From: Streptomyces violaceoruber
GTDB lineage: Bacteria; Actinomycetota; Actinomycetes; Streptomycetales; Streptomycetaceae
NCBI GenBank assembly: GCA_000720805.1
Contig: JODI01000011.1
Span: forward strand, 1-64,000
Direction of reading: 5' to 3'
DNA length: 64,000 nucleotides
The position numbers and the translations under genes were made by a program. Shown here in pieces: positions 18,226 through 39,129 of the stretch (position 1 is the first letter of the stretch; each line of letters starts with the position of its first letter). The notes beneath the pieces were generated by a model that was not told the DNA's origin, did not search any database, and was given only the letters and a program-made list of their open reading frames with translations.

Positions 18226-18523
18226 GCGTACCTCTAGTCTCGGCGGGCAGAAGCAGAGACGCGGGCGCCGCGATCAGTTGAAAGTGCAACCGGCATCTCT
18301 TAGTGGCGGCGCCTGCCCAGACCCCTTGTGCCCAAACGCAGAGGTGGTCCAGTTCACAGGACGTTTACGTCCGCCCGTCCCGCTCCGCGTGCCTCGTCCG
18401 CGCCTGCGACGACATCTTCCCAACGGGGCTTGGCCGACCGTCACTGTCGGTGGGGTGCGGCATGTGCGTGGCGTGTGACTAATGCATCTCAATTTCGCTT
18501 CATCACTGTTTACTATTACCCAC
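18226..18523. other. Intergenic DNA before the recombinase, possible island left end
   Basis: Holds the promoter region of the minus-strand betaine transporter. The last 50 bases before the recombinase start are clearly richer in A+T than the flanking DNA, consistent with a junction of acquired DNA. I could not identify an attachment-site core or a matching direct repeat on the other side. Confidence 0.4.
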
Positions 18524-24045: not shown

Positions 24046-24093
24046 GGCCCGCCCCCGACATGCCCGCGTGACGCCTTCGAAACAGCGCCTCCC

Positions 24094-24116
24094 TAATTTC
24101 TGTCACCCGACAGGAA
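24094..24116. promoter_or_regulatory. TetR-type operator copy upstream of the APC permease
   Basis: TTTCTGTC (24097-24104), four bases, then GACAGGAA (24109-24116): an inverted repeat with one mismatch. With its left flank it reads CCTAATTTCTGTC, identical to the left half of the site at 32427-32455 upstream of the carboxylase operon. It lies 41-64 bp before the permease start, so a shared regulator, most simply the TetR protein encoded at 31695-32330, is inferred. Confidence 0.65.
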
Positions 24117-24156
24117 CTCGCTTCCGCCCCGCTCCCCGCGCCGAAGGCAGGCCGCC

Positions 24157-25701
24157 GTGACGACAACCGCCCCCTCCGACGTCCGCCCGGATCCTCCGCA
24201 CTCCCCGGACGACCGCTCCCTCACCGAGTTCGGCTACCGCCAGGAACTGCACCGCAGCCTGGGCCGGTACGCGTCGTTCGCGGCCGGGTTCTCCTTCATC
24301 TCCGTCCTGACCACCGTCTTCCAGTTCTTCGCCTTCGGGTACGCGTTCGGCGGCCCCGTCTTCTTCTGGACCTGGCCGGCCGTGCTGCTCGGCCAGCTCC
24401 TGGTGGCCGCCTGCTTCGCCGAACTGGCCGCGCGCTATCCGATCTCGGGCGCGATCTACCAGTGGTCGTCGCGCCTGTCGAACCTCACGTTCGGCTGGTT
24501 CGCCGGCTGGATCATGGTGATCGGGCAGATCGTGGTGGTCGCGGCGGCCGCGCTGGCGCTGCAGCTGGTCCTGCCGGCGATCTGGTCCGGCTTCCAGCTG
24601 ATCGGCACCGACACGGCGGTCACCTCGGCGGACGGCGCGGCCAACGCCGCCGTCCTCGGCGTGATCCTGCTGGTGCTGACCACGCTGGTGAACATCCTCG
24701 ACAACCGCGTGATGTCGGTGATCAACCGCGTCGGGGTCACCGCCGAGATCATCGGAGCGGTGCTGATCATCGTCCTGCTGCTGACCCACTCCGAGCGCAC
24801 CCCCGGCATCACCTTCCACACCTCGGGCGCCGCCCAGTCGGGCCTGTTCGGGGCCTTGATGGTGGGCTCGTTCGCGGCGGCGTACGTGATGATCGGCTTC
24901 GACAGCGCGGGCGAGATGAGCGAGGAGACGCACCATCCGCGGCGCACCGCGCCCCGCACCATCCTCGTCGCGCTCGGCGCGGCCGGTCTGCTCGCCACCC
25001 TGATCGTCCTCGGCGGCCTGCTCGCCGCTCCCAGCCTCACCGACGGGCATCTGTCCGTCGACGGTCTGAGCTACGTCCTGACCAGCAGCCTGGGCGACGG
25101 CGTGGGCCGGGCCCTGCTGGCCGACGTGGTCGTGGCGATCGCAGTGGCCACCCTGGCGATCCAGACGGCGGCCTGCCGGATGCTGTTCTCCATGGCCCGC
25201 GACGGCCAGCTCCCCTTCTCCGCCCGTCTCGCGAAGGTCAACCCGCGCACCGGCATGCCGAGCGCCCCGGCCGTGGTGGTCGGCGTCCTCGCGGCCGCCC
25301 TCCTGCTGCTCAACTTCGCCTCCCCGGATGCTTTCCTGGCCATCGGCACCACCTGCATCGTGATGCTGTACCTGGCCTACGCGATGGTCACCGGCCCGCT
25401 CCTGGTCCGCCGTCTGCGCGGCCAGTTCACCGTCGAGGGCACCGACGAGGAGGGCGCCAAGCTCTTCTCGCTCGGCCGCTGGGGCGTCCCGGTCAACGCC
25501 CTCGCCCTCCTCTACGGCCTGGTCATGACGGTCAACCTGGCCTGGCCGAGGGCCGCGGTGTACGACCCGGCGGGCGGGCACTGGTACTTCCAGTGGTTCA
25601 CCGTGCTGTTCCTCACCGTGACCGTGGTGATCGGCGTGGCCTACCGGGCGTACAAGGCACGCGCCTCGGCGGCCAAGGCGCCCGAGGCGGTCGCGGCGTA
25701 A
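24157..25701 (+). CDS. APC-superfamily amino acid/amine permease
   Basis: 514 aa with about 12 predicted membrane helices. The first conserved helix FAAGFSFISVLTTVF and the following GYAFGGPVFFW and YPISGAIYQW are typical of the amino acid/choline/GABA permease branch. The GTG start has a purine-rich site upstream (GAAGGCAGG). An operator-like palindrome upstream matches the one at the urea/guanidine carboxylase operon, so the substrate may be guanidine, urea or a related nitrogen compound; this is inference from the shared site. Confidence 0.88.
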   Translation: MTTTAPSDVRPDPPHSPDDRSLTEFGYRQELHRSLGRYASFAAGFSFISVLTTVFQFFAFGYAFGGPVFFWTWPAVLLGQLLVAACFAELAARYPISGAIYQWSSRLSNLTFGWFAGWIMVIGQIVVVAAAALALQLVLPAIWSGFQLIGTDTAVTSADGAANAAVLGVILLVLTTLVNILDNRVMSVINRVGVTAEIIGAVLIIVLLLTHSERTPGITFHTSGAAQSGLFGALMVGSFAAAYVMIGFDSAGEMSEETHHPRRTAPRTILVALGAAGLLATLIVLGGLLAAPSLTDGHLSVDGLSYVLTSSLGDGVGRALLADVVVAIAVATLAIQTAACRMLFSMARDGQLPFSARLAKVNPRTGMPSAPAVVVGVLAAALLLLNFASPDAFLAIGTTCIVMLYLAYAMVTGPLLVRRLRGQFTVEGTDEEGAKLFSLGRWGVPVNALALLYGLVMTVNLAWPRAAVYDPAGGHWYFQWFTVLFLTVTVVIGVAYRAYKARASAAKAPEAVAA

Positions 25702-25730
25702 CTCGGCGGCCAAGGCGGTCGCGGCGTAAC
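25665..25730. repeat. Partial duplication of the permease 3' end
   Basis: CTCGGCGGCCAAGGCG and GTCGCGGCGTAAC occur at 25665-25680 and 25690-25702, and again adjacent at 25702-25730. The coding copy holds nine extra bases (25681-25689). The second copy lies after the stop codon, so it is a recent local duplication that left the protein end unchanged. Confidence 0.8.
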
Positions 25731-25770
25731 CCGGCCCGGGTCACGGCGTACCCGCTTACGCTTGCCCGTG

Positions 25771-26739
25771 ATGACACGCAACCACCGGATCCCGCCCTCT
25801 CCCCTGCCGCAGCGCGAGGGGGTGGATCCGGTGCGGGTGCGGTTGCCCGCCGAGGGGCCGTGGGCCACGGTGCGCGAGCACCTGGTGGAGCGGCTCGCGG
25901 CGCACGCCGGTGTCGTCGAGGGGATGTTCGACGCGGGGCAGGTCGTCGGGGCGGACGGGCGGGCGGTGGCCCCGGACGCGGTGTACGTACCCGGGATGTT
26001 CGTGTGGTTCCACCGGGAGCTGCGTGCCGAGGTAGCGGTGCCGTTCCCGGTGGAGGTGGTGTACCGCGACGAGCACATCGTCGTCGCCGACAAGCCGCAC
26101 TTCCTGGCCACCACCCCCCGCGGCAGCCATGTCACCCAGACCGCGCTCGCCCGGCTCCGCCGGGAGCTGGACCTCCCCACGCTGGGCGCCGCGCACCGGC
26201 TGGACCGGCTCACCGCCGGGCTGGTGCTGTTCACCGTACGGCCCGAGGAGCGGGGCGCCTACCAGGGGCTGTTCCGCGACCGGCGGGTGCGCAAGGAGTA
26301 CGAGGCCGTGGCACCGTACTCCCCCGCGCTCACCCTGCCCCGGACCGTGCGCAGCCGGATCGTGAAGGAGCGCGGGGTACTGGCCGCGTACGAGGTGGCG
26401 GGCGAACCGAACGCGATCAGCCGGGTGGAGCTGGTCGAGCGGGGCGAGCCGGCCGCCGGCCACGAAGGCACCCTCGGCCGCTACCGGCTCACCCCCGCCA
26501 CCGGCCAGACCCACCAGCTGCGGGTCCACATGAACGCGCTCGGAGTACCCATCCTCGGCGACCCCCTCTACCCCATGGTGACCGACCCCGTGCCGGCCGG
26601 TGACTTCCGGCGTCCGCTCCAACTGCTGGCGCGGAGGCTGGAGTTCACCGATCCGGTGACGGGAGTGGAGCACCGGTTCCACAGCGGGCGGGTTCTGGGG
26701 GCCTGGACGTCGTACGCAAGGTGGGCGGCTGGTCAGTAG
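25771..26739 (+). CDS. RluA-family RNA pseudouridine synthase
   Basis: 322 aa. The catalytic motif AAHRLDRLTAGLVLF (Asp in HRLD) and the late TPATGQTHQLRVHM and ILGDPLYP are RluA-family signatures. It converts a uridine in rRNA or tRNA to pseudouridine; which one cannot be told. The ATG at 25771 is used; a GTG three bases earlier... and TTG nine bases earlier are in frame. Its last 7 bp overlap the convergent P450 gene. Confidence 0.9.
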   Translation: MTRNHRIPPSPLPQREGVDPVRVRLPAEGPWATVREHLVERLAAHAGVVEGMFDAGQVVGADGRAVAPDAVYVPGMFVWFHRELRAEVAVPFPVEVVYRDEHIVVADKPHFLATTPRGSHVTQTALARLRRELDLPTLGAAHRLDRLTAGLVLFTVRPEERGAYQGLFRDRRVRKEYEAVAPYSPALTLPRTVRSRIVKERGVLAAYEVAGEPNAISRVELVERGEPAAGHEGTLGRYRLTPATGQTHQLRVHMNALGVPILGDPLYPMVTDPVPAGDFRRPLQLLARRLEFTDPVTGVEHRFHSGRVLGAWTSYARWAAGQ

Positions 26740-28235
26740 CCGCGCCACCACCGCAGGAAGCGCCGCCACGCGCCCCGCGGGCGGACCGGTTCAGGTGCCG
26801 GGGCGGGCTGTGGCGCCGGCCCGGGCTGTGGCATCGCTACGGCGGCCGGTCGGGGGTCCGGGCTGCCGACGGGGGCCGGCTCCGGCTGGTGCGTGCCGAC
26901 CTGCCAGGAGTTGCGCGGCGGCGGGACCGGCAGCCGGCCCGGTGTGAGCGTCACCTCCTGCGGCGGCGTCGGCGCGAACCGCACCGGCAGCTCCGCCAGG
27001 TGGCGGGAGGACATGGACTCCGTCCAGGTCAGCTCGTCCTCGGGGCAGTCGAGTTCGACGTCCGGAAGCCGCATCAGCAGCGCGTCCACACCGGTGTCGG
27101 CGATGGCTCGGCCGATGTCCTGGCCGGGGCACTCGTGCGGCCCGCCGCCGAAGGCGAGGTGGGAGCGGTTGCCCTTCATGTGGGCGGAGAGGTCGGGCCG
27201 CACCCGGGGGTCGACGTTGCCCGGCGCGATGCCGAAGAGCAGGCCGTCGCCCCTGCGGATGCGCTGGCCGCCCAACTCGGTGTCCTGCTTGGCGAAGTAG
27301 GCGAAGATCGTGCTGAACGGCGGCTCGTCCCACAGGGACTGCTCGACCGCCTCCGGCACCGTCATCTGGCCGCCGTTGAGCTGGGCGCGGAAGCGTGGGT
27401 CGGTGAGCACCATCCGCAGCACGTTGGCGAGCAGGTTGGCGGTGGCCTCGTACGCGGCGATGAGCACGAGCCGCAGGTGTTCGCGGACCTCGTCGTCGGT
27501 GAGCCGGGCCGGATGGGTGATGAGGTAGCTGGTGAAGTCCTCCTCGGGGCGGGCGCGACGGCGGGCGGTGAGCCGGCCGAGGGCGTCCATGATGTACGCG
27601 TTGCTGGCGATCGCGGTCTCGGTGCCGCGGAGCATGTCGCGGGCGGCCTGCACGATCCGGTCGTTGTACTCGTCGGGCATGCCGAGGACCTCGCACATCA
27701 CGGCCATCGGCAGGTGCTCGGAGAACTGGCTGACCAAATCGGCGGTGCCCTCCTCGCAGAACCGGTTGACCAGGCGCTGGGTGTGGCGGTTGATGTGCCG
27801 GCGGATGCCGCGGGGGTCGATGGTGGAGATGGCGCCGTTGACCGCGCCGCGCAGCCTCAGGTGCTCGTCGCCCTCGACGTGGGCGGCGATGGGCTGCCAG
27901 GCGATGTGCGGCATGAGGGGGTGGTCGGGCTTGACCAGGCCGTCCAGGAGCGGGGTCCAGATGCGGCTGTCCCGGCAGAACTGCGAGGGCGTACGCACCA
28001 TGTGCAGGTTCTCTGCGTGGCCGAGCACCACCCACATCGGCACGTCGTCGTGGAGCAGCACGGGCGCCACCGGGCCGTGTTCCTCCCGCAGTTGCTCGTA
28101 CAGCGAGCCGAGGTTCTCCGCGTCGGGCCCGTAGAGCCGGCGCAGTCCGCCGGGTCCGCGGTCGTGGGCGGGACATCCGGGCGGTGGAACGAGGCCGGGG
28201 TCCGTACCGGTCGGGGAGTGGTGTTCAGGCGTCAC
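26733..28235 (-). CDS. rarE: Conservon cytochrome P450 (CYP157-type, RarE)
   Basis: 500 aa. The heme-binding loop FGGGPHECPG gives the Cys ligand at about 369, and the I-helix AAYEAT (260-265) keeps the acid-Thr pair. The K-helix ExxR motif, otherwise nearly universal in P450s, is replaced by EQSLW at 298-302, the hallmark of the CYP157 family. The C-terminal 80 residues are a Pro-rich tail. It is the last gene of the rarABCDE conservon (cvn9 in S. coelicolor, which affects aerial mycelium formation) and follows rarD by 91 bp. A redox partner is not adjacent. Confidence 0.93.
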   Translation of the reverse strand: MTPEHHSPTGTDPGLVPPPGCPAHDRGPGGLRRLYGPDAENLGSLYEQLREEHGPVAPVLLHDDVPMWVVLGHAENLHMVRTPSQFCRDSRIWTPLLDGLVKPDHPLMPHIAWQPIAAHVEGDEHLRLRGAVNGAISTIDPRGIRRHINRHTQRLVNRFCEEGTADLVSQFSEHLPMAVMCEVLGMPDEYNDRIVQAARDMLRGTETAIASNAYIMDALGRLTARRRARPEEDFTSYLITHPARLTDDEVREHLRLVLIAAYEATANLLANVLRMVLTDPRFRAQLNGGQMTVPEAVEQSLWDEPPFSTIFAYFAKQDTELGGQRIRRGDGLLFGIAPGNVDPRVRPDLSAHMKGNRSHLAFGGGPHECPGQDIGRAIADTGVDALLMRLPDVELDCPEDELTWTESMSSRHLAELPVRFAPTPPQEVTLTPGRLPVPPPRNSWQVGTHQPEPAPVGSPDPRPAAVAMPQPGPAPQPAPAPEPVRPRGAWRRFLRWWRGY

Positions 28236-28326
28236 AGTGATCGCTCCGAAGTGGATCCGGTGTCCGTGTGTGTCATGTATGTCGGTGTATGTCCGTGCGG
28301 GGCCGTCGGCGCGGCTGCGGCTGCGG

Positions 28327-28947
28327 TCACCTCAGCGCGCCCGACATGGCGAGGGAGTGCAGGAAGCGCATGAGGGTCATCAGGGTGTCCCGGCTGGAGG
28401 CGCGGCGGCGCGCGTCGCAGTCGACGATGGGGATCTCCTCACTCAGGTCGAGTGCGGTGCGCAGTTCCTCGACGGGGTAACGGGGCGCGTCCGGGAAGGA
28501 GTTGACGGCGACGATGAAGGGCACGCCGCGCTCCTCCAGACGCCCCATGACGTCGAAACTGACTTCCAGGCGGCGGGTGTCGATGAGCACGACCGCGCCC
28601 AGCGCCCCCTCGAACAGGCCGTTCCACAGGAACCAGAAGCGTTCCTGGCCGGGGGTGCCGAAGAGGTACAGCACGAGTTGGTCGGTGATGCTGATGCGGC
28701 CGAAGTCCATCGCCACGGTGGTGGCCGTCTTGGACTCGGATCCGTAGTCGTCGTCCACGCCGACGCCGGCCTGGGTCATGGTCTCCTCGGTGGTCAGCGG
28801 TTTGATCTCGCTGACCGAGCCGACCATGGTGGTCTTGCCGACACCGAAGCCGCCCACGATGACGATCTTCACCGCCGCCTGGGCGGTGGGCGGGAGGTGG
28901 TCCTCCTTCCGGGGACCCGTGACGGTGTCAGAGTTTTTGAAGTCCAT
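28327..28947 (-). CDS. rarD: Conservon Ras-like GTPase (RarD)
   Basis: 206 aa. The P-loop GGFGVGKTT is at about 32-40, and a G3-like segment FGTPGQERFWFLW replaces the usual DxxGQ. AVNSFPDA stands at the G4 position, typical of this atypical prokaryotic GTPase family (CvnD). Within a conservon it is thought to act with the RarA ATPase-like protein, the roadblock protein RarB and DUF742 protein RarC as a membrane-associated signalling complex. It overlaps rarC by 20 bp. Confidence 0.93.
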   Translation of the reverse strand: MDFKNSDTVTGPRKEDHLPPTAQAAVKIVIVGGFGVGKTTMVGSVSEIKPLTTEETMTQAGVGVDDDYGSESKTATTVAMDFGRISITDQLVLYLFGTPGQERFWFLWNGLFEGALGAVVLIDTRRLEVSFDVMGRLEERGVPFIVAVNSFPDAPRYPVEELRTALDLSEEIPIVDCDARRRASSRDTLMTLMRFLHSLAMSGALR

Positions 28948-29368
28948 GCATCACCGCTTCGAGGAGAGAACGGTCGGCCAGCGCCTGTCGGATGACCGGG
29001 GCACGCGCCGTCACCAGTTCGGCCGTCAGCAGCTCGGTGATCAGTACGGTCACCACGCTGAACGGCAGGCTCAGATAGGCCGACAGCTCGGCCACGGACA
29101 GGGGGGCCGTACACAGCCGGAGCAGCGCCGCCTGCTCGGGTGTCGCGGAGGGCGGCGGGTCGGCGCTCGCCACGATCAGCGTGACCAGGTCGAGTTCGGT
29201 GCGTCGGGCACCGTCCGGACCGGTGATCACGTACAGCCGCTCGGGGTTCTTCTTCTCCCCCTCGGGCTGCTGGTCGTCCTCGGGCGGGCGCGTCGGTTCG
29301 GGTTCCGGCCTGATGTACGGCTCGGGTTCCTGCTTGGGGTATCGCCGCCGGCGTTGCGGAGGAATCAT
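28928..29368 (-). CDS. rarC: Conservon DUF742 protein (RarC)
   Basis: 146 aa. The N-terminal 45 residues are charged and Pro-rich. The DUF742 domain follows (RLYVITGPDGARRTELDLVTLIV, with a predicted winged-helix core LCTAPLSVAELSAYLSLP). It is cotranscribed: its ATG overlaps rarB by 4 bp and its end overlaps rarD by 20 bp. Members may link the sensor-like RarA to the GTPase; the biochemical role is not settled. Confidence 0.92.
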   Translation of the reverse strand: MIPPQRRRRYPKQEPEPYIRPEPEPTRPPEDDQQPEGEKKNPERLYVITGPDGARRTELDLVTLIVASADPPPSATPEQAALLRLCTAPLSVAELSAYLSLPFSVVTVLITELLTAELVTARAPVIRQALADRSLLEAVMHGLQKL

Positions 29369-29772
29369 ACGGTCTGCCCGTTGCGCCTGGGCGGGCTGGT
29401 GAGGTGCGCGCCGATGCGGATGACCAGATCGCTCATGCGGGCGCTCATGTAGCCGGGTTCGGCGCGTACGTCGGAGAGCACCGCGAGGTAGGCGTTGGGT
29501 CCGGCGGCCATCAGGTAGAAGTAGCCGCCGTGGATCTCGATGAGGACCATCTTCATCTCGCCCTCGCTGCCCGGGATCTCCTGGGCGACGGCGCCGGCCA
29601 GGCTCTGCAGGCCCGCGCAGGCCGCGGCGACGCGGTCGGCGGTGTCCGGGTCGCCGCCGTGGCGGGCGATGCGCAGTCCGTCGGCGGAGAGCACCACGAT
29701 CATCTGGATGCCCGGTACGCCCTTGGCGAGGTCCTGGAGCATCCAGTCGAAGTTGCCGCGCTGCTGGATCAC
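29365..29772 (-). CDS. rarB: Conservon roadblock/LC7 protein (RarB)
   Basis: 135 aa roadblock/LC7 domain (VPGIQMIVVLSADGLRIA, then the central FYLMAAGPNAYLAVLSD). Roadblock proteins modulate small GTPases, here presumably RarD. It overlaps rarA and rarC by 4 bp each, so translation is coupled across the operon. Confidence 0.93.
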   Translation of the reverse strand: MIQQRGNFDWMLQDLAKGVPGIQMIVVLSADGLRIARHGGDPDTADRVAAACAGLQSLAGAVAQEIPGSEGEMKMVLIEIHGGYFYLMAAGPNAYLAVLSDVRAEPGYMSARMSDLVIRIGAHLTSPPRRNGQTV

Positions 29773-31370
29773 TTGAGGTCTCCCTCGTCGTCGGCCTCGA
29801 CGTGGGCCGGTTCGTCGGTCGGCTGGGGGGGTGCGGTGGGGTCAGGGCGCTTGAGGTTGTCGAAGAACGCCTGGACCCACTGACCCGGCGGGGTGTCGGG
29901 CGCCTTCTGCGCGATCTCCGGCGCGGGTTCGGGCTCGCGTTTGGCGGTCGACCAGATGGTCGGCCGGCCCTCCCGTTCGGCCTGCTCGATGGCTGCCTGC
30001 TCGGCGTAGCGCTGGGTGAGCGAGGTCTTGACCCGGCTGCGGCGCTGCGGCAGTCCGTTGGCGGTCCACTCGGTGACCTCGGGGACGTCGTCCTCCATGG
30101 AGACCGGAGTGACGAACTTGGGGCTGGTGGGGCGGCGGTTCTTGACCGTGCGCTTGGGGCCGGGGAGCGCGCCGAGTTCGGGCTGGGGCACGGCCGTGGC
30201 GCCGATGCCGTGGGCGAGTCCGACGCCGGGCTCCGAGGTGAGCATGTCGCTGGGCACGACGAGGATGGCGCGGACCCCGCCGTACGCGGAGGCCCGCAGC
30301 GAGACCTGCATGTTGTAGGTGCGGCACAGCCGGCCCACGACGGCGAGGCCCAGGCGCGGCGCCTCGCCGAGGTCCTGCAGGTCGACGCCGGCCATGGCGC
30401 GTTCCAGCATGCCCTCGGCCCTCAGGCGGGCGTCCTCGCTGAGGCTGACGCCGGCGTCCTCGATCTCGATGCAGACACCGGTCTGCACCTCGGTGGCGGT
30501 GACGTGCACCTTGGTCTGCGGGGGCGAGTAGCGGGTGGCGTTGTCGAGGAGTTCGGCCGCCGCGTGGATGACGGGTTCGACGGCGGTGCCCTTGACGTTG
30601 ACCTTGGCGATGGAGGTCAGGTCGATGCGCCCGTACTCCAGGATCCGGGACATCGCGCCGCGCAGCACGCTGTAGAGCGCGACGGGCTCGGGCCACTGAC
30701 GGCCGGGGCGGCCGCCGCCGAGGACGGAGATGGAGTCGGCGAGCCGGCCGATCAGCGCGGTGCCGTGGTCGATGCGCAGCAGGTCGGTGAAGACCTCGGG
30801 GTTGCGGCCGTGGTCCTCCTCCATCTCCCGCAGTTCGTTGGCCTGCTGGTGGACGATGGCCTGGACGCGACGGGCGATGCTGACGAAGGAGCGCTGCGCG
30901 GCGTCGCGCATGACGTCCTCGGTGTCGATGACGGTCAGCACCGCCTTGAGCAACGACACCTGGGACTCAGGGAGTTCGTGCCAGGCGGTCTCGACGTCGC
31001 CGAGGTGGCGAATCACCTCTGCGGGGGAATTTCCGCCGCGCATCAGGTGCAGGGCGGTCGGCAGGATCTCCTTGGCGAGGCGGGTCATCTCCTCCTCGTG
31101 GCCGGCGATCCGCCGTTCCAGATACGCGGAGCGACGGGCGTGCTCCGTGCGCAGGTCACGCAGGGTCCGGCCGCGGCGGACCGCTTCCGACGCCGTCGCG
31201 ACCAACAGCAGGGTGGCGAGGGCGCCGCACCAGCCGACGGCGGCCCGGGCCGGTGCCGTCACCAGCGCGACGGCGGCCCCGGTCGCCGCGGCCATCGCTA
31301 TGGCGGGCAGCAACAACACGCGGGTGTACGGGAGTTCACGGCGACCGGGAGGAGATTGAACACTCACCAT
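29769..31370 (-). CDS. rarA: Conservon sensor kinase-like membrane ATPase (RarA)
   Basis: 533 aa. Two N-terminal membrane helices (about 15-57) precede a cytoplasmic coiled-coil region and a GHKL ATPase domain: N-box AAAELLDNATRYSPP and a G1-like IEIEDAGVSLS. A phospho-accepting His in the usual H-box is not evident, which is typical of CvnA proteins, so it may not be a true kinase. The C-terminal 150 residues are a disordered, Pro/Glu-rich tail. The ATG at 31370 has GAGGG six bases upstream. It is the first gene of the conservon. Confidence 0.92.
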   Translation of the reverse strand: MVSVQSPPGRRELPYTRVLLLPAIAMAAATGAAVALVTAPARAAVGWCGALATLLLVATASEAVRRGRTLRDLRTEHARRSAYLERRIAGHEEEMTRLAKEILPTALHLMRGGNSPAEVIRHLGDVETAWHELPESQVSLLKAVLTVIDTEDVMRDAAQRSFVSIARRVQAIVHQQANELREMEEDHGRNPEVFTDLLRIDHGTALIGRLADSISVLGGGRPGRQWPEPVALYSVLRGAMSRILEYGRIDLTSIAKVNVKGTAVEPVIHAAAELLDNATRYSPPQTKVHVTATEVQTGVCIEIEDAGVSLSEDARLRAEGMLERAMAGVDLQDLGEAPRLGLAVVGRLCRTYNMQVSLRASAYGGVRAILVVPSDMLTSEPGVGLAHGIGATAVPQPELGALPGPKRTVKNRRPTSPKFVTPVSMEDDVPEVTEWTANGLPQRRSRVKTSLTQRYAEQAAIEQAEREGRPTIWSTAKREPEPAPEIAQKAPDTPPGQWVQAFFDNLKRPDPTAPPQPTDEPAHVEADDEGDLK

Positions 31371-31694
31371 GTGGGCCCTCTGAAACAAATCGGCGGGGTG
31401 TCGGGGAGCTTGCAGGGGGGAATGTCGTGGGTATCTCTGGATCTTCTGCACATTTGCGAACAAGCGCACGAATACGCCTCAACTCGGTGCGCTGCGGGCG
31501 AGCTTAGTCCGACCGGATCATCGCCATGTCATATTCAGCAAGCGTCTGAAACCGGGCGCACAGGAGGGGTACGCTCGGCTCCATTTATACGCTGAGGTTC
31601 TCATCGCACACACTGAGTAACGATGTACAGGCGTGCGAAAACACCCACCGTGACGAGTGACGTGCCCCCACAACGAGGCCGAGGAGCGCCGGGA
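31371..31694. promoter_or_regulatory. Conservon upstream region
   Basis: 324 bp without a gene, between the rarA start and the TetR stop, and more A+T-rich than its surroundings (for example CTCCATTTATACGCTGAGG near 31580). It must contain the rarA-E promoter. I see no clear operator. Confidence 0.5.
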
Positions 31695-32330
31695 TCAGAC
31701 CCCGGCGATGCGCAGCGCGGCGTCCGCCGTCGCCTCCGCGAACACCGACACGGACCGCGCGGGGTCGGAGCGGTGGACGAGGATGACGCCCTCGATCAAC
31801 CCGAACACCAGGTCCGTCCGGAGATCCAGCTCGCTCTTGGCGAGCTCGCCACCGGACCTGGCGGCCGCGAGCAACTGCCGGTAGGCGTCCTTGAGTTCGG
31901 CACGCACGGCGTGGAAGCCGGCGAAGCGCTCGGCGCGCACCTCGGGCAGCAGATAGAGCCCGCCGAGGTTGTGCGTACCGCCGCACAGCACCTCGACGTC
32001 GGCCCGGCACAGCTCCCACAACCGGTCCTCGGCCGGGACGGTGTCGTCTGCGAGAAGTTCACGGGCGTACGCGAGGGAGGGCGTGACGGTGGACTCCAGG
32101 AGCTGGGCGAGCAACTCCTCCTTGCCGGAGACGTAGTGGTACATGGACGCCTGGCGCATTCCGGCGCGTTCGGCGACGGCCCGGGTGGAGGTGGCCGCGT
32201 AGCCGAGGGTGGTGAACAACTCGGCGGCGGCCGCGAGGAGTTCCTCGCGCGGCTCCAGCCCGCTGTCCGGCCGCTGAGCGGCCCGCGGCCTGCCGACCCG
32301 TCGGCTTTGCCCTGTACCTGCTGTCCCCAT
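31695..32330 (-). CDS. TetR-family regulator of the carboxylase operon
   Basis: 211 aa. The helix-turn-helix (about 28-75) has the TetR signatures ELFTTLGYAATSTRAVAERAG and QASMYHYVSGKEELL. A C-terminal ligand/dimer domain of about 130 residues follows. The ATG at 32330 is chosen as it lies shortly before the conserved domain. It is divergent from the DUF1989-carboxylase operon, with a perfect inverted repeat between them, so it is the likely regulator of both. Confidence 0.9.
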   Translation of the reverse strand: MGTAGTGQSRRVGRPRAAQRPDSGLEPREELLAAAAELFTTLGYAATSTRAVAERAGMRQASMYHYVSGKEELLAQLLESTVTPSLAYARELLADDTVPAEDRLWELCRADVEVLCGGTHNLGGLYLLPEVRAERFAGFHAVRAELKDAYRQLLAAARSGGELAKSELDLRTDLVFGLIEGVILVHRSDPARSVSVFAEATADAALRIAGV

Positions 32331-32426
32331 GCGATCGATCCTCGCACACCGCCGTCCGCGGTGATCTTCGTGAGGGCCCGGTAACCGACCGGCAACGCGA
32401 CGGCAACGCCCGTGACCCGCCCCCCG

Positions 32427-32455
32427 CCTAATTTCTGTCGAGCGACAGAAATAGG
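32427..32455. promoter_or_regulatory. TetR operator of the carboxylase operon
   Basis: ATTTCTGTC (32431-32439), four bases, GACAGAAAT (32444-32452): a perfect 9-bp inverted repeat, with CCTA and AGG extending the symmetry outward. It ends about 30 bp before the first DUF1989 gene and lies in the promoter region shared with the divergent TetR gene. A near-copy is at 24092-24116. Confidence 0.8.
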
Positions 32456-32484: not shown

Positions 32485-33309
32485 ATGGCGACAGCGACCA
32501 CTTACGGAGCCCGCGCCCACGCGCGTGCCCAGGAGGGCACCCGCACCGAGGCGATGCCCGTCGTCCCGGCCAGGAACTGGCCGGCCCCACCGTGCGAGGC
32601 GGGCCACCTGGTGTGGGCGGAGACGGTCGCGGGCGGCAACTACACGCACCGGGTCCTGGCCCGCGGCACCGAGCTGCGCCTGACCGACCCGCGCGGCGAC
32701 GCCTGCGCCCACCTGCTCCTGTACGCGGCCGACCGGCCCTGGGAGCGGCTGAACGTCGCCGACACGGTGAAGGTCCAGTGGAACGCCTACCTGGGCGAGG
32801 GCCAGCTCCTCCTGTCCGACCAGGGCCGCGTCCTCGCCTCCCTGATCGCCGACACGTCCGGCCGCCACGACGCGCTGTGCGGCACCTCCACCCTGGTCCG
32901 CAACACCGAGCGCTACGGCGACGGCACCCCGCAGAGCCCCTCCCCCGCGGGCCGCGAACTGTTCACACTGGCGGCCGCGAAGAACGGCCTGGAGCCGCGC
33001 GACCTGCCGCCCTCGCTCTCCTTCTTCCAGGGCGTCGAGGTCCGCGAGGACGGCGCACTCGACTTCACCGGCTCGGCCGGCCCCGGCGGCAGCGTCACCC
33101 TGCGCGCCGAGCAGGACGTCACCGTACTGATCGCGAACGTCCCCCACCCGGCCGACCCCCGCCCCGAGTACGTCAGCACCCCCCTGGAGGTGCTCGCCTG
33201 GCGTGCCGAGGCGACGAAGCCGGGCGACCCCCTGTGGGACGCCACACCCGAGGGCCACCGCGCCTTCCTCAACACCGCGGACTTCCTCGCCGCGAGGGGG
33301 CTCGCATGA
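32485..33309 (+). CDS. DUF1989 urea carboxylase-associated protein 1 (carboxyguanidine deiminase subunit-like)
   Basis: 274 aa. It belongs to the DUF1989 family (LTDPRGDACAHLLLY, then HDALCGTSTLVRNTERYG), found next to carboxylases annotated for urea. In bacteria where the pair has been studied, the two DUF1989 proteins form a carboxyguanidine deiminase, which turns carboxyguanidine into allophanate. The ATGA overlap with the next gene shows coupling. Confidence 0.87.
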   Translation: MATATTYGARAHARAQEGTRTEAMPVVPARNWPAPPCEAGHLVWAETVAGGNYTHRVLARGTELRLTDPRGDACAHLLLYAADRPWERLNVADTVKVQWNAYLGEGQLLLSDQGRVLASLIADTSGRHDALCGTSTLVRNTERYGDGTPQSPSPAGRELFTLAAAKNGLEPRDLPPSLSFFQGVEVREDGALDFTGSAGPGGSVTLRAEQDVTVLIANVPHPADPRPEYVSTPLEVLAWRAEATKPGDPLWDATPEGHRAFLNTADFLAARGLA

Positions 33310-33932
33310 CCACGACCACCACCACGACCACGACGGCCGTCGTTCCCGCACGCGCCGCCTGGTCCGCCGTCGTACGCGCCGGCGAGACGCTCACCATCAC
33401 CGACCTGCACGGCAACCAGGCCGTCGACTTCCTCGTCTACGACGCCCACGACACGTCGGTCCGCTACAGCGCCCCCGACACGATCCAGGCGCAGGGCAAC
33501 CTCTTCCTGACCACGGGCAGCGTGCTGATGTCCAACGAGCACACCCCGTTGATGACGGTGACCGCCGACGACGTCGGCCGTCACGACACGGTCGGCGGGG
33601 CCTGCTCCAAGGAGTCGAACACCCTGCGGTACGGCCACCACACCTGGTCGCAGCACGCGTGCGTGGACAACTTCCTCGCCGAGGGCGCCAAGTACGGCCT
33701 GGGCAAACGGGATCTGGTCTCCAACATCAACTGGTACATGAACGTGCCGGTCGAGAAGGACGGCACCCTCGGCATCGTCGACGGCCTGTCCTCCCCGGGC
33801 CTGAAGCTGACCCTGCGCGCCGAGCGCGACGTGCTCGTCCTGGTCTCCAACTGCCCCCAGATCAACAACCCGTGCAACGGCTTCGAGCCGACCGCCGTGG
33901 AGATGACGATCAGCGAGGCGGGCACCGCATGA
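33306..33932 (+). CDS. DUF1989 urea carboxylase-associated protein 2 (carboxyguanidine deiminase subunit-like)
   Basis: 208 aa. The first ten residues are a run of Thr after Met, from an ACC/ACG repeat. The DUF1989 core follows: DLHGNQAVDFLVYD, GGACSKESNTLRYG, a Cys-containing NCPQINNPCNGF near the end. It overlaps both neighbours by 4 bp. It pairs with the preceding gene product, from which it differs in sequence and length, consistent with a heteromeric enzyme. Confidence 0.87.
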   Translation: MTTTTTTTTTAVVPARAAWSAVVRAGETLTITDLHGNQAVDFLVYDAHDTSVRYSAPDTIQAQGNLFLTTGSVLMSNEHTPLMTVTADDVGRHDTVGGACSKESNTLRYGHHTWSQHACVDNFLAEGAKYGLGKRDLVSNINWYMNVPVEKDGTLGIVDGLSSPGLKLTLRAERDVLVLVSNCPQINNPCNGFEPTAVEMTISEAGTA

Positions 33933-36900
33933 CCTTCGACACCCTCCTCGTCGCCAACCGGGGCGAGATCGCCGTCCGCATCATCCGTACCGCCCGCGAA
34001 CTGGGCCTGCGCACGGTCGCCGTGTACTCCGATCCCGACCGCTCCGCACCCCACGTCCGGCTCGCCGACGAGGCGGTACGGCTCGGCCCGGCGCCCGCGA
34101 AGGAGTCGTACCTCGACGCCGACCTGGTGCTCAAGGCGGCCAAGGACACCGGTGCGGGCGCGATCCACCCCGGCTACGGCTTCCTGTCCGAGGACGCGGC
34201 CTTCGCGCGGCGCTGCGAGGACGCCGGGATCGTGTTCGTCGGCCCGGCACCGGAACAGTTGGAGCTGTTCGGCGCCAAGCACACGGCCCGGGCGGCGGCG
34301 GAGATGGCCGGGGTGCCGCTGGCGCCGGGGACGGGCCTGCTGGCGTCCCTCGACGAGGCACTCGAACAGGCAGCCGGAATCGGTTACCCCGTCATGCTCA
34401 AGGCGACCGGCGGAGGCGGCGGAATCGGTATGTCGGCATGTCACTCGGCCGATGAACTGACCGACGCCTGGGACCGCGTCCAGCGCGTCGCCGCCGCCTC
34501 CTTCTCCTCCGCCGGCGTCTTCCTGGAACGCCTGGTCGAGCACGCCCGCCATGTCGAGGTGCAGGTCTTCGGCGACGGCGAGGGCAAGGTCGTCACCTTC
34601 GGCGACCGCGACTGCTCCCTCCAGCGCCGCAACCAGAAGGTCCTGGAGGAGGCCCCGGCACCGGGCCTGCCCGACCGGGTTCGTGATCAGCTGGCCGCGA
34701 GCGCACGTGAGTTGTGCGCCTCCGTCGGCTACCGCTCGGCGGGAACCGTCGAGTTCGTCTACGACGCCGCCCGCGAGGAGGCCTACTTCCTGGAGGTCAA
34801 CACGCGCCTCCAGGTCGAGCACCCGGTCACCGAGGAGATCTACGGCGTCGACCTGGTCGCCTGGATGCTGCGCCTGGCCCGCGGCGAGCGGGGCGTCGTC
34901 CGCGACCCGGGCACCCCGCGCGGCCACGCCGTCGAGGCCCGCCTCTACGCCGAGGACCCCTCCCGCGAACACCGCCCCAGCGCGGGCCTGTTGACACGGG
35001 TGGAGTTCCCGCCGGGCGTGCGCGTCGACGGCTGGGTGGAGACCGGCACCGAGGTGACGACCTCGTACGACCCGATGCTCGCGAAGGTCATCGCGTACGG
35101 CCCCGACCGTGCCCACGCCCTCGAGCGGCTGGACGAGGCACTGGCCCGCACCCGCGTCGACGGCATCGAGACCAACCTGGGACTGGTACGGGCGGCGCTC
35201 ACCGACCGGGACTTCCTGCGGGCCGCGCACTCCACGGCGACCCTGGCGGCCGTCGGCGATCCGACCCCGCGCATCGAGGTCGTCTCCGGAGGCACCCTCA
35301 CCACCGTGCAGGACTGGCCGGGCCGCACCGGCTACTGGCAGGTCGGCGTGCCCCCGTGCGGCCCGATGGACGACCTGTCCTTCCGGCTCGGCAACCGGGC
35401 GCTCGGCAACGACGAGAGCGCCCCGGGGCTCGAATGCACCCTCCAGGGCCCCTCGCTCCGCTTCACCCACCCGACGACCGTGTGCGTGACGGGTGCGCCC
35501 GCCCCGGTCACCGTCGACGGCACGCAGGTCGCGCAGTGGGAGCCGGTGACGGTGCCGGCAGGGGGCCTGCTGGAGATCGGCGCTCCTCGTGAGCACGGCC
35601 TGCGGACGTACGTCCTCGTCGCCGGGGGCCTCGACGTGCCGGCCTTCCTCGGCAGCGCGAGCACCTTCACGCTGGGTCGCTTCGGCGGACACGGCGGGCG
35701 GGCGCTGCGCACCGGTGACGTCCTGCACGGCGGGACGGTGACCGAGGACGGGACCGTGACCGCGGGTGGGCCGGTACCGCTCGGTGACCGCCCGGACTTC
35801 GGTGCCGTATGGCACGTGAAGGCCGTCGAAGGCCCGCACGCCGCCCCGGAGTTCTTCACCGAGGAGGACATCCGCGACTTCTACGCGGCCGACTGGAAGG
35901 TCCACTTCAACTCGGCCCGTACCGGGGTCCGCCTGATCGGCCCGAAGCCGCGCTGGGCCCGTACCGACGGCGGCGAGGCGGGCCTGCACCCGTCCAACAT
36001 CCACGACACCGCGTACTCCGTGGGCGCCGTCGACTACACGGGCGACATGCCGGTGCTGCTCGGCCCGGACGGCCCCTCCCTCGGCGGATTCGTCTGCCCG
36101 GCGACGGTGATCAGTACCGAGCGCTGGAAGCTGGGCCAGCTCCGCCCGGGCGACACGGTGCGCTTCGCGCCGGTGGACGTGTCCGGCGCCCCCCGCCCCG
36201 CCATCGTGGACGGCGGCATCCTCGCCCGGGACGGCGACGTCACGTACCGCCGCAGCGGCGACGACAACCTGCTGGTCGAGTTCGGGCCGATGCAGCTGGA
36301 CCTCGCCCAGCGCATGCGCGTCCACGCGCTGATGGAGGCGGTGTCCGAGCAGGGCCCGGAGGGCATCACCGACCTCACTCCGGGCATCCGCTCGCTCCAG
36401 ATCCAGACGGACCCCGCCCGCCTGTCCGCGGACGAACTCCTCGCCGCCGTACGGGAGATCACCGCGTCCCTGCCACCGAGCGACGAACTGGTGGTCCCCT
36501 CCCGCACGGTCCACCTCCCCCTGTCCTGGGACGACCCGGCGACCCGCGAGGCGATCGCCCGCTACATGGCGGGCGTCCGCGACGACGCCCCCTGGTGCCC
36601 GTGGAACATCGAGTTCATCCGCCGGGTCAACGGCCTGGAGTCGGTCGAGGACGTCTACCGCACGGTCTTCGACGCCGAGTACCTGGTCCTGGGCCTCGGC
36701 GACGTCTACCTGGGCGCTCCCGTGGCCACACCTCTGGACCCCCGCCACCGCCTGGTGACCACCAAGTACAACCCGGCGCGCACCTGGACGGCGGAGAACT
36801 CGGTCGGCATCGGCGGCGCCTACCTGTGCGTCTACGGCATGGAGGGCCCCGGCGGCTACCAGTTCGTGGGGCGCACGACCCAGGTGTGGTCGGGCTGGCA

Positions 36901-37459
36901 GCAGCGCGGTGCGTTCGAACCGGGCTCGCCCTGGCTGCTGCGCTTCTTCGACCGCATCAAGTGGTATCCGGTGGACGCGGACGAACTCCTCGACCTGCGC
37001 GCCGACATCGTCGCCGGCCGCTTCGTACCGCTCATCGAGGAGGGCACGTTCTCCCTCTCCGAGTACCAGGCCTTCCTGGCCGAACACGCCGAGTCCATCG
37101 GGGAGTTCCGGTCCCGGCAGCAGACGGCGTTCTCGGCGGAGCGGGACGCCTGGGAGGAGGCGGGCGAGTTCACCCGCGCGGAGGCCGCGACCGCCCCTGC
37201 CGCTGCCCCGGCGGAGGTGACCGTCCCGCCGGGCGGGCGCCTGATCGAAGCCGAGTTCGCCGCCTCGGTCTGGCAGCTGAACGTCGGGCCGGGCGACGAG
37301 GTGACGGCCGGGCAGCCGCTGCTCGCCCTGGAGGCGATGAAGATGGAGTCCAGGGTGCGCGCGCCGGTCGACGGCGTGGTGGCGGAGATCCTGGCCAGAC
37401 CGGGCGACCAGGTGGAGGCGGGAACGGCACTGGTCGTCCTGGCCCCGGCCGCGAACTGA
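33929..37459 (+). CDS. Urea/guanidine carboxylase (biotin-dependent)
   Basis: 1176 aa. Domains in order: biotin carboxylase (1 to about 450; VANRGEIAVRII, GGGGGIGM ATP loop, EVNTRLQVEHPVTEE), an allophanate-hydrolase-subunit-2-like/KipA domain (about 455-760), a subunit-1-like/KipI domain (about 800-1000; NIEFIRR, YNPARTWT, GIGGAYLC), and a biotin carboxyl carrier domain with EAMKMES, biotinyl Lys about 1138. It ATP-dependently carboxylates urea or guanidine. With two DUF1989 partners, guanidine is the likelier substrate, but I cannot assign the discriminating residue. Both ends couple closely to neighbours. Confidence 0.9.
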   Translation: MTFDTLLVANRGEIAVRIIRTARELGLRTVAVYSDPDRSAPHVRLADEAVRLGPAPAKESYLDADLVLKAAKDTGAGAIHPGYGFLSEDAAFARRCEDAGIVFVGPAPEQLELFGAKHTARAAAEMAGVPLAPGTGLLASLDEALEQAAGIGYPVMLKATGGGGGIGMSACHSADELTDAWDRVQRVAAASFSSAGVFLERLVEHARHVEVQVFGDGEGKVVTFGDRDCSLQRRNQKVLEEAPAPGLPDRVRDQLAASARELCASVGYRSAGTVEFVYDAAREEAYFLEVNTRLQVEHPVTEEIYGVDLVAWMLRLARGERGVVRDPGTPRGHAVEARLYAEDPSREHRPSAGLLTRVEFPPGVRVDGWVETGTEVTTSYDPMLAKVIAYGPDRAHALERLDEALARTRVDGIETNLGLVRAALTDRDFLRAAHSTATLAAVGDPTPRIEVVSGGTLTTVQDWPGRTGYWQVGVPPCGPMDDLSFRLGNRALGNDESAPGLECTLQGPSLRFTHPTTVCVTGAPAPVTVDGTQVAQWEPVTVPAGGLLEIGAPREHGLRTYVLVAGGLDVPAFLGSASTFTLGRFGGHGGRALRTGDVLHGGTVTEDGTVTAGGPVPLGDRPDFGAVWHVKAVEGPHAAPEFFTEEDIRDFYAADWKVHFNSARTGVRLIGPKPRWARTDGGEAGLHPSNIHDTAYSVGAVDYTGDMPVLLGPDGPSLGGFVCPATVISTERWKLGQLRPGDTVRFAPVDVSGAPRPAIVDGGILARDGDVTYRRSGDDNLLVEFGPMQLDLAQRMRVHALMEAVSEQGPEGITDLTPGIRSLQIQTDPARLSADELLAAVREITASLPPSDELVVPSRTVHLPLSWDDPATREAIARYMAGVRDDAPWCPWNIEFIRRVNGLESVEDVYRTVFDAEYLVLGLGDVYLGAPVATPLDPRHRLVTTKYNPARTWTAENSVGIGGAYLCVYGMEGPGGYQFVGRTTQVWSGWQQRGAFEPGSPWLLRFFDRIKWYPVDADELLDLRADIVAGRFVPLIEEGTFSLSEYQAFLAEHAESIGEFRSRQQTAFSAERDAWEEAGEFTRAEAATAPAAAPAEVTVPPGGRLIEAEFAASVWQLNVGPGDEVTAGQPLLALEAMKMESRVRAPVDGVVAEILARPGDQVEAGTALVVLAPAAN

Positions 37460-37473
37460 AAGAGGAACACCGT

Positions 37474-39129
37474 ATGTCCACCACCCTCTCCCGCGTCCGC
37501 GCCGCCTACGCCCGCGTCGCGGCGGTCGACCGCCCCGAGATCTGGATCGACCTGCGCCCGCAGGACGAGGTCGAGCGGGAGGCGCGGGCGCTCGACGCCC
37601 GGCTGTCCGAAGGCGAGCACCTTCCGCTCGCCGGACGCCTGTTCGCCGCCAAGGGCAACATCGACGTGGCCGGCCTGCCCACCACCGCGGGCTGCCCGTC
37701 GTACGCCTACGACCCCGAGAGCGACGCACCGGTCGTCGCCCGGCTCCGTGCGGCGGGCGCCCTCGTTCTGGGGACCACGAACCTGGACCAGTTCGCGACG
37801 GGCCTGGTCGGCACCCGCTCCCCGCACGGCGCCGTCCGCAACGCGAACGACCCGGCCAGGATCAGCGGCGGCTCCAGTTCCGGCTCGGCCGTCGCCGTAG
37901 CCCTGGGGATCGTCGACTTCGCGCTGGGCACCGACACCGCGGGCTCGGGCCGGGTCCCGGCCGCCTTCAACGGCATCGTCGGCCTCAAACCCACCCGGGG
38001 CCTGGTCCCGACGGCCGGCGTGGTCCCCGCCTGCGCCTCCCTGGACTGCGTGACGGTGTTCGCCCGCACCCTCCCCGAGGCCGAGCGGGCCCTGGCCCAC
38101 ATGGCCTCCCCGCCCGACCGCGACCTGCCCCCGCTCCCCCAGCGCACCCCGGGCCCCTGGCGGGTTGCGGTCCCGGCGCGGGACCAGCTCGGCGAGCTGG
38201 ACGAGGGCTGGGCACAGGCGTACGAGGCGGCGGTGGACCAGCTCGTCGCAGCGGGGGCCTCGGTACGGGAGATCGACCTCAGCCCCTTCACGGACGCCGC
38301 GGCGATGCTCTACCAGGGCGCGTTCGTGGCCGAGCGCTACACGGCCGTAGGGATCTTTGTCGACAAAGCGCTGGCCGCGGACGACCCGTCCCTCGACCCC
38401 ACCGTCGCCGGCATCATCACCCGCGCCCGTGACATCCCGGCCCATCAGCTCTTCGCCGACACCGACCGGCTGGCCGGCCTGCGCACCCGAGCTCTCGCCG
38501 AGCTGGCCGACGCGGACGCCCTCCTGCTCCCCACCGCTCCCAGCCACCCCACCCTCGCGGAGGTCGCCGCCGACCCCCTGGGCGCCAACGCCCGCCTGGG
38601 CCGCTTCACCAACTCCACCAACCTCTTCGACCTGGCGGCGGTGGCGGTCCCGGCCGGCGAGGCCAACGGCCTCCCCTTCGGCGTCATGCTGATCGGCCCG
38701 GCGTTCACCGACGAGCGCCTGGCGAGGATCGCCGCCCTGCTCCAGCCGGAGACACGGCTGGCGGTGGTGGGGGCCCACCTGACGGGCCAGCCCCTCAACC
38801 CCCAACTGCTGTCCCTGGGCGCCCGCCTGGACCGTACGACGACCACGGCCCCGGTTTACCGCCTCCACGCGCTGGCGACCGACCCGCCCAAGCCGGGCCT
38901 GGTCCACGTGGGCGAGGGCGGCGCGCAGATCGAGACGGAGGTGTGGCACCTCCCGGCAGAGGGCCTGGGCCGCCTCCTGACAGCACTGCCCCGCCCGATG
39001 ACCCTGGGCAAGGTACACCTGGCGGACGGCACCAGCGTGCCGGGCTTCCTGTGCGAGCCCGGCGCCCTGTCGGATGCGGAGGACATCACCCGGTACGGCA
39101 GCTGGCGTTCCTATCTCGAAGAGCGCTGA
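37474..39129 (+). CDS. atzF: Allophanate hydrolase
   Basis: 551 aa. The N-terminal amidase-signature domain has the Ser-cisSer-Lys triad: Lys60 (FAAKGNIDV), Ser134 (SGGSSSGS) and Ser158 (DTAGSGR). The C-terminal domain (about 440-551) is the one that finishes hydrolysis in AtzF-type enzymes (FLCEPGAL). It breaks allophanate to ammonia and CO2, the last step of the pathway. The ATG at 37474 has GAAAGAGGAA upstream, 14 bp after the carboxylase stop. Confidence 0.92.
   Translation: MSTTLSRVRAAYARVAAVDRPEIWIDLRPQDEVEREARALDARLSEGEHLPLAGRLFAAKGNIDVAGLPTTAGCPSYAYDPESDAPVVARLRAAGALVLGTTNLDQFATGLVGTRSPHGAVRNANDPARISGGSSSGSAVAVALGIVDFALGTDTAGSGRVPAAFNGIVGLKPTRGLVPTAGVVPACASLDCVTVFARTLPEAERALAHMASPPDRDLPPLPQRTPGPWRVAVPARDQLGELDEGWAQAYEAAVDQLVAAGASVREIDLSPFTDAAAMLYQGAFVAERYTAVGIFVDKALAADDPSLDPTVAGIITRARDIPAHQLFADTDRLAGLRTRALAELADADALLLPTAPSHPTLAEVAADPLGANARLGRFTNSTNLFDLAAVAVPAGEANGLPFGVMLIGPAFTDERLARIAALLQPETRLAVVGAHLTGQPLNPQLLSLGARLDRTTTTAPVYRLHALATDPPKPGLVHVGEGGAQIETEVWHLPAEGLGRLLTALPRPMTLGKVHLADGTSVPGFLCEPGALSDAEDITRYGSWRSYLEER

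Follow-up and report, generated by a model that had tools for sequence, protein, structure and literature searches.

In Streptomyces avermitilis and Mycobacterium smegmatis, permease and urea carboxylase genes have been linked to the TetR-family repressor AmtR (PMC4222082; PMC8864220, citing Chen et al. 2013), and a GlnR peak and gel shift were reported at the M. smegmatis counterpart (PMC3662644). For the enzymes, Asp at positions 1330 and 1584 of the Kluyveromyces lactis numbering has been used to call guanidine carboxylases, and the PF09347 (DUF1989) pair has been assigned as the two carboxyguanidine deiminase subunits (PMC11410670). Here, we analyzed a 64,000-nucleotide stretch of Streptomyces violaceoruber DNA (contig JODI01000011.1, positions 1 to 64,000; "the window"), in which a palindromic motif precedes both an APC-type permease gene and a DUF1989-carboxylase operon. 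Sequence comparison suggests, with a probability of roughly 0.85, that this motif is an AmtR box, that the AmtR encoded at 31695-32330 represses the operon and the permease gene, and that GlnR activates them, so that uptake and breakdown would be co-expressed. In outline this regulon is already known (sav6697-6709 in S. avermitilis) and has been partly tested in M. smegmatis; our additions are the assignment to guanidine, the layout of GlnR, -10, and AmtR elements, a transporter swap, and an acidic triad in the regulator. The operators and genes concerned are as follows.

24096..24117, + strand: predicted AmtR operator of the permease gene, ATTTCTGTCACCCGACAGGAAC (motif search, conservation in related loci)
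24157..25701, + strand: APC-type permease of the urea-carboxylase system, TIGR03428-like (profile match of 651.6 bits)
31695..32330, - strand: AmtR-type TetR-family repressor (sequence and predicted fold)
32431..32452, no strand: predicted AmtR operator of the carboxylase operon (perfect palindrome between the divergent amtR and operon)
32485..33309, + strand: UAAP1 (DUF1989), carboxyguanidine deiminase subunit by family (TIGR03425, over cut-off)
33306..33932, + strand: UAAP2 (DUF1989), carboxyguanidine deiminase subunit by family (TIGR03424, over cut-off)
33929..37459, + strand: guanidine-type "urea carboxylase" with Asp702 and Asp925 (TIGR02712, residue alignment)
37474..39129, + strand: allophanate hydrolase (profile match)

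An earlier note on this DNA had described a perfect palindrome between the TetR gene and the operon, together with an almost identical site upstream of the permease gene. The former was found exactly, at 32431-32452, and is better described as ATTTCTGTCG-AG-CGACAGAAAT. The latter is present where it was placed, but its right arm, GACAGGAAC versus GACAGAAAT at the operon site, carries two mismatches rather than one, and one of these lies inside the 20-bp core. Measured against the 26-bp pattern, 32427-32452 is a perfect match and 24092-24117 departs from it at two bases, both of them right-arm positions. None of 100 dinucleotide-shuffled versions of the window matched it. When the whole genome (10,528,896 bases) was searched with the 22-bp motif ATTTCTGTC-N4-GACAGAAAT at up to three mismatches, three places were found, and a reversed control pattern gave no match at the same setting; the only two sites in the 10.5-Mb genome with two mismatches or fewer are 32431-32452 and 24096-24117. 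The third place is a three-mismatch site on contig C31, which we did not count as a target. It stands some 20 bases ahead of a putative start codon (locus L003, 1501-1522), followed by what by eye is a lipoprotein-like N terminus, and may be due to chance. A second TIGR03428-like permease gene of this genome (C69:35290-36699) had no site within three mismatches in the genome-wide search.

Across the genus, the exact pattern TTTCTGTCNNNNGACAGRAA was found in 47 of 199 genomes and a control pattern in none. The carboxylase (TIGR02712, E 1e-200 or better) is encoded in 55 genomes, including all 47 with the motif, and none of the 144 carboxylase-free genomes has the exact motif. In 40 of the 47, the exact sites number two, one palindromic and one of the GACAGGAA type; these sites share a contig in 38 genomes, 2.4 to 13 kb apart, and lie on different contigs in the other two. 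The palindromic site alone was found in five genomes and the permease-type site alone in two, and no further exact site occurred in any of the 47. Four of the five palindromic-site-only genomes were inspected (the fifth, G001, was left out): a permease site with two mismatches stands in G041, G065, and G159, and the 19 kb examined of G044 yielded no permease. The TetR gene (E 1e-40 or better) was detected in 60 of the 199 genomes, including 46 of the 47 with the motif; the missing one, G139, is an assembly in 1010 contigs. Allowing two mismatches in the 20-bp palindrome raised the count to 82 of 199 genomes, a noisy figure because the control also matched some, this genome included. Other two-mismatch sequences recurred, namely GTTCTGTCATGGGACAGCAA (G033, G016, G181, G146, and G161) and TTTCTGTG-N4-CACAGAAA (G166, G082, G161, and G059), which may be operators of other regulators.

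A UAAP1 search yielded 413 loci, of which we considered the best 80; these are close relatives and not independent. The operon site is present in all 80 (79 exact, one with a single mismatch). For 46 loci the sequence reaches the permease start, the flank or contig ending before it in the remaining 34; 45 of the 46 have a site with one mismatch in the 20-bp core within 300 bp upstream, and in the other (L049) the site overlaps the predicted permease start. Random 330-bp segments of these same loci (2923 kept of 3000 after removal of those with TTTCTGTC) never reached three mismatches and reached four once. At the order level, 58 of 293 genomes matched. Besides genus members, these were three of the five genomes that represent other genera of the family (the three belonging to two genera); none of 15 from other families matched. 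Among 30 AmtR-like loci drawn from the whole class, 10 of them in the genus (one being that of the window), 21 carry a looser AmtR-type box, 18 of these with no mismatch, this looser pattern carrying no chance control. L059, L080, L092, and L108 have tandem operator copies in their permease promoters at a distance of 19-20 bp, although the first L080 copy, with three mismatches, is weak; two repressor dimers could sit there side by side. The comparative evidence of rarity, conservation, and co-occurrence thus lends strong support to the proposal of a TetR-type regulon made up of the permease and the carboxylase operon.

The TetR protein is identified as AmtR, both by its sequence and by its predicted fold. 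Sequence comparison with solved structures ranked six AmtR chains at 1.9e-36 to 9e-28, followed by the next protein at 2.2e-11, and the predicted fold is that of AmtR. When a divergent AmtR-type protein of another family was used as query, this gene scored 1.3e-40 and the next 1.4e-10. An AmtR-type palindrome stands at both target promoters, and TTTCTGTC-N4-GACAGAAA fits the AmtR boxes CTAT-N6-ATAG and TAtCTGTCa-n2-cGACAGATAT given in PMC8864220. Furthermore, the gene co-occurs with permease, urea carboxylase, and amidase genes, the pattern of Table 3 in PMC4222082. The interpretation of the earlier note is partly supported, its two-target regulon strongly so, but the regulator is AmtR, whose link to these genes has already been described.

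The earlier note had left guanidine and urea side by side as the nitrogen compound, and the residues point to guanidine. In alignment with the K. lactis enzyme (5i8i), Asp702 of the carboxylase falls on Asn1330 and Asp925 on Asp1584. The enzyme is a biotin-dependent carboxylase by TIGR02712 (1842 bits versus a cut-off of 1304), and both deiminase subunits are present by TIGR03425 and TIGR03424, over cut-off, the assignment in PMC11410670 being tree-based. Among 12 aligned carboxylases (the window's and 11 relatives), column 702 is the only one that is Asn in both genomes lacking DUF1989 and Asp in the other ten. These two genomes, G069 and G171 (loci L118 and L120), have Asn at the specificity position, with DUF1989 genes not matched nearby, and from their sequences their enzymes are likely true urea carboxylases.

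Upstream of both operators and overlapping them, a further set of elements is conserved.

24057..24083, + strand: predicted GlnR half-site ladder GACAT-n6-GTGAC-n6-GAAAC (conservation; consensus of PMC10704036)
24094..24099, + strand: predicted -10 hexamer TAATTT overlapping the operator left half (kept in 54 of 60 distinct permease-type sites)
32381..32418, + strand: predicted GlnR half-site ladder GTAAC-n6-GCAAC-n6-GCAAC-n6-GACCC (conservation)
32429..32434, + strand: predicted -10 hexamer TAATTT overlapping the operator left half (found in each of the 93 aligned operon-type sites)

Gap-free alignments were made of 93 operon-type sites, one of them a symporter site of G097, and of 61 permease-type sites (60 distinct, tandem copies included). 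Mean information in the operon and permease sets was 1.84 and 1.83 bits in the core, 1.14 and 1.12 bits upstream, and 0.25 and 0.28 bits downstream, respectively, and the two conservation profiles agreed best at zero shift (r 0.69). Upstream conservation was periodic at 11 bp, with a periodicity as strong in none of 5000 position shuffles for the operon and in 8 of 5000 for the permease. The operon repeats are kept as GTAAC in 86, GCAAC in 75, GCAAC or GCAAT in 75, and GACCC in 64 of 93 sites, and the permease repeats as GACAC or GACAT in 51, GTGAC, GTCAC, or GTCAT in 50, and GAAAC in 56 of 60. The repeats fit the GlnR box, given as gTnAc-n6-GaAAc or t/gTAAC-n6-Gc/aAAC in PMC10704036 (Table 2); GTGAC-n6-GAAAC stands at 24068-24083, and GTAAC-n6-GCAAC, the M. 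smegmatis form, at 32381-32396. TAATTT is probably the -10 element, as judged from its conservation; its mirror AAATTA is kept in just 13 of 93 operon-type sites, and its position inside the operator would explain the one-sided CCTAA of the earlier note.

From these elements, the following mechanism is proposed. AmtR would bind each site as a dimer and repress the cgdA-cgdB-guanidine carboxylase-allophanate hydrolase operon and the separate permease gene, and probably its own divergent gene as well. Because the operator covers TAATTT at both promoters, bound AmtR would block RNA polymerase, while under nitrogen limitation GlnR would turn the promoters on through the half-sites spaced at about 11 bp directly upstream. 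Joint expression of guanidine uptake and breakdown would then require both a nitrogen shortage and the release of AmtR.

Several observations weigh against this picture. By count, the GlnR pattern in the window is near chance (three found versus 1.19 expected, with 14 of 100 shuffles reaching three), and one of the three matches overlaps the permease operator, so that the argument for the ladders comes from conservation and not from number; moreover, the permease periodogram peaks nearer 11.5-12 than 11 bp. The permease, although best matched by TIGR03428, stays at 651.6 bits below the curated cut-off of 740.45. The genome counts come from kindred sampled genomes and hence are not independent. 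Besides the 46 motif genomes with a TetR match, 14 others are TetR-positive, namely G097 and 13 with neither the carboxylase nor an exact site, indicating that the protein is not exclusively linked to these targets. The AmtR-like genes of these 13 (L200-L212; G012, G085, G046, G094, G173, G054, G078, G039, G188, G167, G083, G038, and G074) are 64-76% identical, and 10 of them adjoin a pseudouridine synthase gene. Finally, the exact motif is absent from 8 of the 55 genomes with a carboxylase.

Each of these eight can be accounted for. G097 has both sites in one-mismatch versions. In G003, G007, G020, G063, and G111, the order is permease-UAAP1-UAAP2-carboxylase-hydrolase-TetR, the TetR protein is 37-42% identical, and the palindrome TACCTGTC-N4-GACAGGTA stands upstream of the permease in all five (L114, L115, L116, L117, and L119), a second lineage in which the operator appears to have shifted along with the regulator. 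In this genome, the TACCTGTC-type operator matched four places at two mismatches versus two for the control, which is not above noise. G069 and G171 have the carboxylase and hydrolase, with no DUF1989, permease, or TetR match in the 18 kb examined. In G097, the upstream site precedes not an APC permease gene but a sodium:solute symporter gene (PF00474, 92 bits), whose ATG starts 31 bases past the last base of the 20-bp core; by eye, GTAAC-n6-GAAAC-n6-GGTAC lies upstream, one base out of the ladder register. That an unrelated transporter stands under the same motif, albeit in one genome, supports the function of the sites.

Could the two sites resemble each other by chance? The window has just two of them and one is imperfect, which would favor such a view; yet the shuffles, the rarity in the genome, and the conservation in related loci all speak to the contrary, as the earlier note had anticipated in calling two such matches unlikely by chance, and the exact copies in 47 of 199 genomes, none with a further exact site, rule it out, leaving it a vanishingly small probability. 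It is also very improbable that the palindrome acts in RNA as a leader hairpin instead of as a protein operator. A perfect inverted repeat located 32 bp ahead of a start codon could be read in this manner; the permease copy, however, is imperfect and is conserved in that imperfect form (GACAGGAA), the site overlaps the conserved TAATTT within a conserved promoter region, its form fits the AmtR box, it co-occurs with the AmtR gene, and no Rfam family matches within the window. As for the substrate, the database names "urea carboxylase" and "permease, urea carboxylase system" would make urea the compound served by operon and permease, but Asp702 and Asp925 agree with the published residues of guanidine carboxylases, both DUF1989 subunits are encoded in the operon, and the two genus genomes having a carboxylase and no DUF1989 match in the stretch examined carry Asn at this position. 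We thus consider urea improbable, and guanidine remains the substrate that the sequences favor.

A guanidine riboswitch was also considered as the regulator of the operon and rejected, given that an Rfam search of the window at the gathering threshold gave no match, upstream of the operon included, and that the seven motif-less loci L114-L120 gave none at that score either. Elsewhere in the genus, where the best 100-132 first-look candidates per genome were scored, guanidine-III matched in 20 of 25 genomes tested (18 above the gathering score) and guanidine-I in none of the 25; in this genome, guanidine-III had no match at E 0.01 among the candidates scored. At both guanidine-III loci inspected, an SMR exporter gene lies at the match. 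The suggestion of a protein-based alternative to the riboswitches holds for this operon, but most of the genus genomes tested have a guanidine-III match elsewhere.

As for the signal that releases AmtR, three acidic residues of its ligand domain are conserved in AmtR-type proteins from several actinobacterial families. Asp111, Glu130, and Glu180 do not vary among 36 aligned AmtR-type proteins, are conserved to at least 97% in a set of 103, and recur in 29 of 30 class-wide loci, with Asp-Asp-Glu in the remaining one. By alignment, all three are present in M. smegmatis AmtR, whereas Corynebacterium glutamicum AmtR has Glu, Ile, and Met. Such a triad would fit a guanidinium site. Tentatively, and with less than an even chance of being right, we suggest that AmtR outside Corynebacterium may be a guanidine-sensing repressor, with guanidine or carboxyguanidine/allophanate at Asp111, Glu130, and Glu180, forming an AND gate with GlnR; a separate guanidine-III arm would serve export, so that RNA would govern export, beside SMR exporter genes, and protein catabolism. 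Some triad-bearing class-wide loci had no guanidine-gene match in the 3.5 kb examined, hence the guanidine link is not exclusive. A literature search covering journals open without subscription found no publication joining AmtR, guanidine, and the carboxylase, and, in the sources it reached, no link between guanidine carboxylation and GlnR.

A competing view, which we regard as a real contender at somewhat below even odds, is that AmtR is released here by adenylylated GlnK, not guanidine, and that the regulon reports nitrogen shortage only. Adenylylated GlnK is the signal proposed for C. glutamicum AmtR, for which PMC8864220 reports no identified small-molecule effector, and neither urea nor amino acids affected binding of, or released, M. 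smegmatis AmtR (PMC4222082). A second nitrogen-status input, however, would be redundant if GlnR already reads nitrogen at both promoters; the AmtR-regulated genes of M. smegmatis kept nitrogen control without AmtR (PMC4222082); and the triad is invariant in the 36 aligned AmtR-type proteins but replaced in the C. glutamicum protein.

Around these elements, the operon extends over 32485-39129 (UAAP1, UAAP2, carboxylase, and allophanate hydrolase). The interval between the permease gene and amtR (25762-31469) holds a pseudouridine synthase gene, a P450-like gene, and four genes with HATPase, roadblock, DUF742, and ATP-binding domains, a layout which we take to be a conservon. In L123-L127 the permease gene adjoins amtR, and in L122 just short pseudouridine synthase matches lie in between. 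Upstream of the region studied, an open reading frame at 18482-20017 of the window is serine recombinase-like, as judged by eye from its translation.

Taken with the known AmtR systems, these data recast "urea carboxylase" genes under AmtR as a guanidine regulon and offer a concrete effector candidate for non-corynebacterial AmtR; a two-site regulon with a fixed GlnR/-10/AmtR layout would be a clean test case for nitrogen-plus-substrate logic, and if guanidine is indeed the effector, the guanidine riboswitches would have a counterpart made of protein, and a biosensor would be at hand. Among the closest known systems is the AmtRsav regulon of S. avermitilis, which has the same regulator family and gene set (PMC8864220; PMC4222082, Table 3). 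There, the permease gene sav6709 lies apart from amtR (sav6701), the carboxylase is sav6698 and the amidase sav6697 (PMC4222082), and amtR is transcribed opposite to the operon, all as here. Its 22-bp site, TAtCTGTCa-n2-cGACAGATAT (PMC8864220), is close, the outer half-site bases differing slightly from those of TTTCTGTC in this strain. To that account, as these sources give it, we add guanidine as the substrate and, at both promoters, the GlnR-type ladder. In M. smegmatis, AmtR represses and GlnR activates the permease-carboxylase genes msmeg_2184-2189, likewise a very small regulon (PMC4222082, PMC3662644), but amtR (msmeg_4300) lies elsewhere, whereas here it is divergent from the operon and the separate permease gene has its own operator. 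The homologous repressor of C. glutamicum recognizes the palindrome CTAT-N6-ATAG with the same spacing as here (PMC8864220); as a nitrogen regulator, however, it governs at least 35 genes (PMC4222082), with GlnK as the proposed signal and the three acidic residues replaced. Finally, carboxylase operons under guanidine-I/II riboswitches encode the same enzymes (guanidine carboxylase, carboxyguanidine deiminase, and allophanate hydrolase) together with a transporter (PMC12186494, PMC11410670), but in those operons the sensor is RNA, whereas here it would be a protein repressor plus, probably, GlnR.

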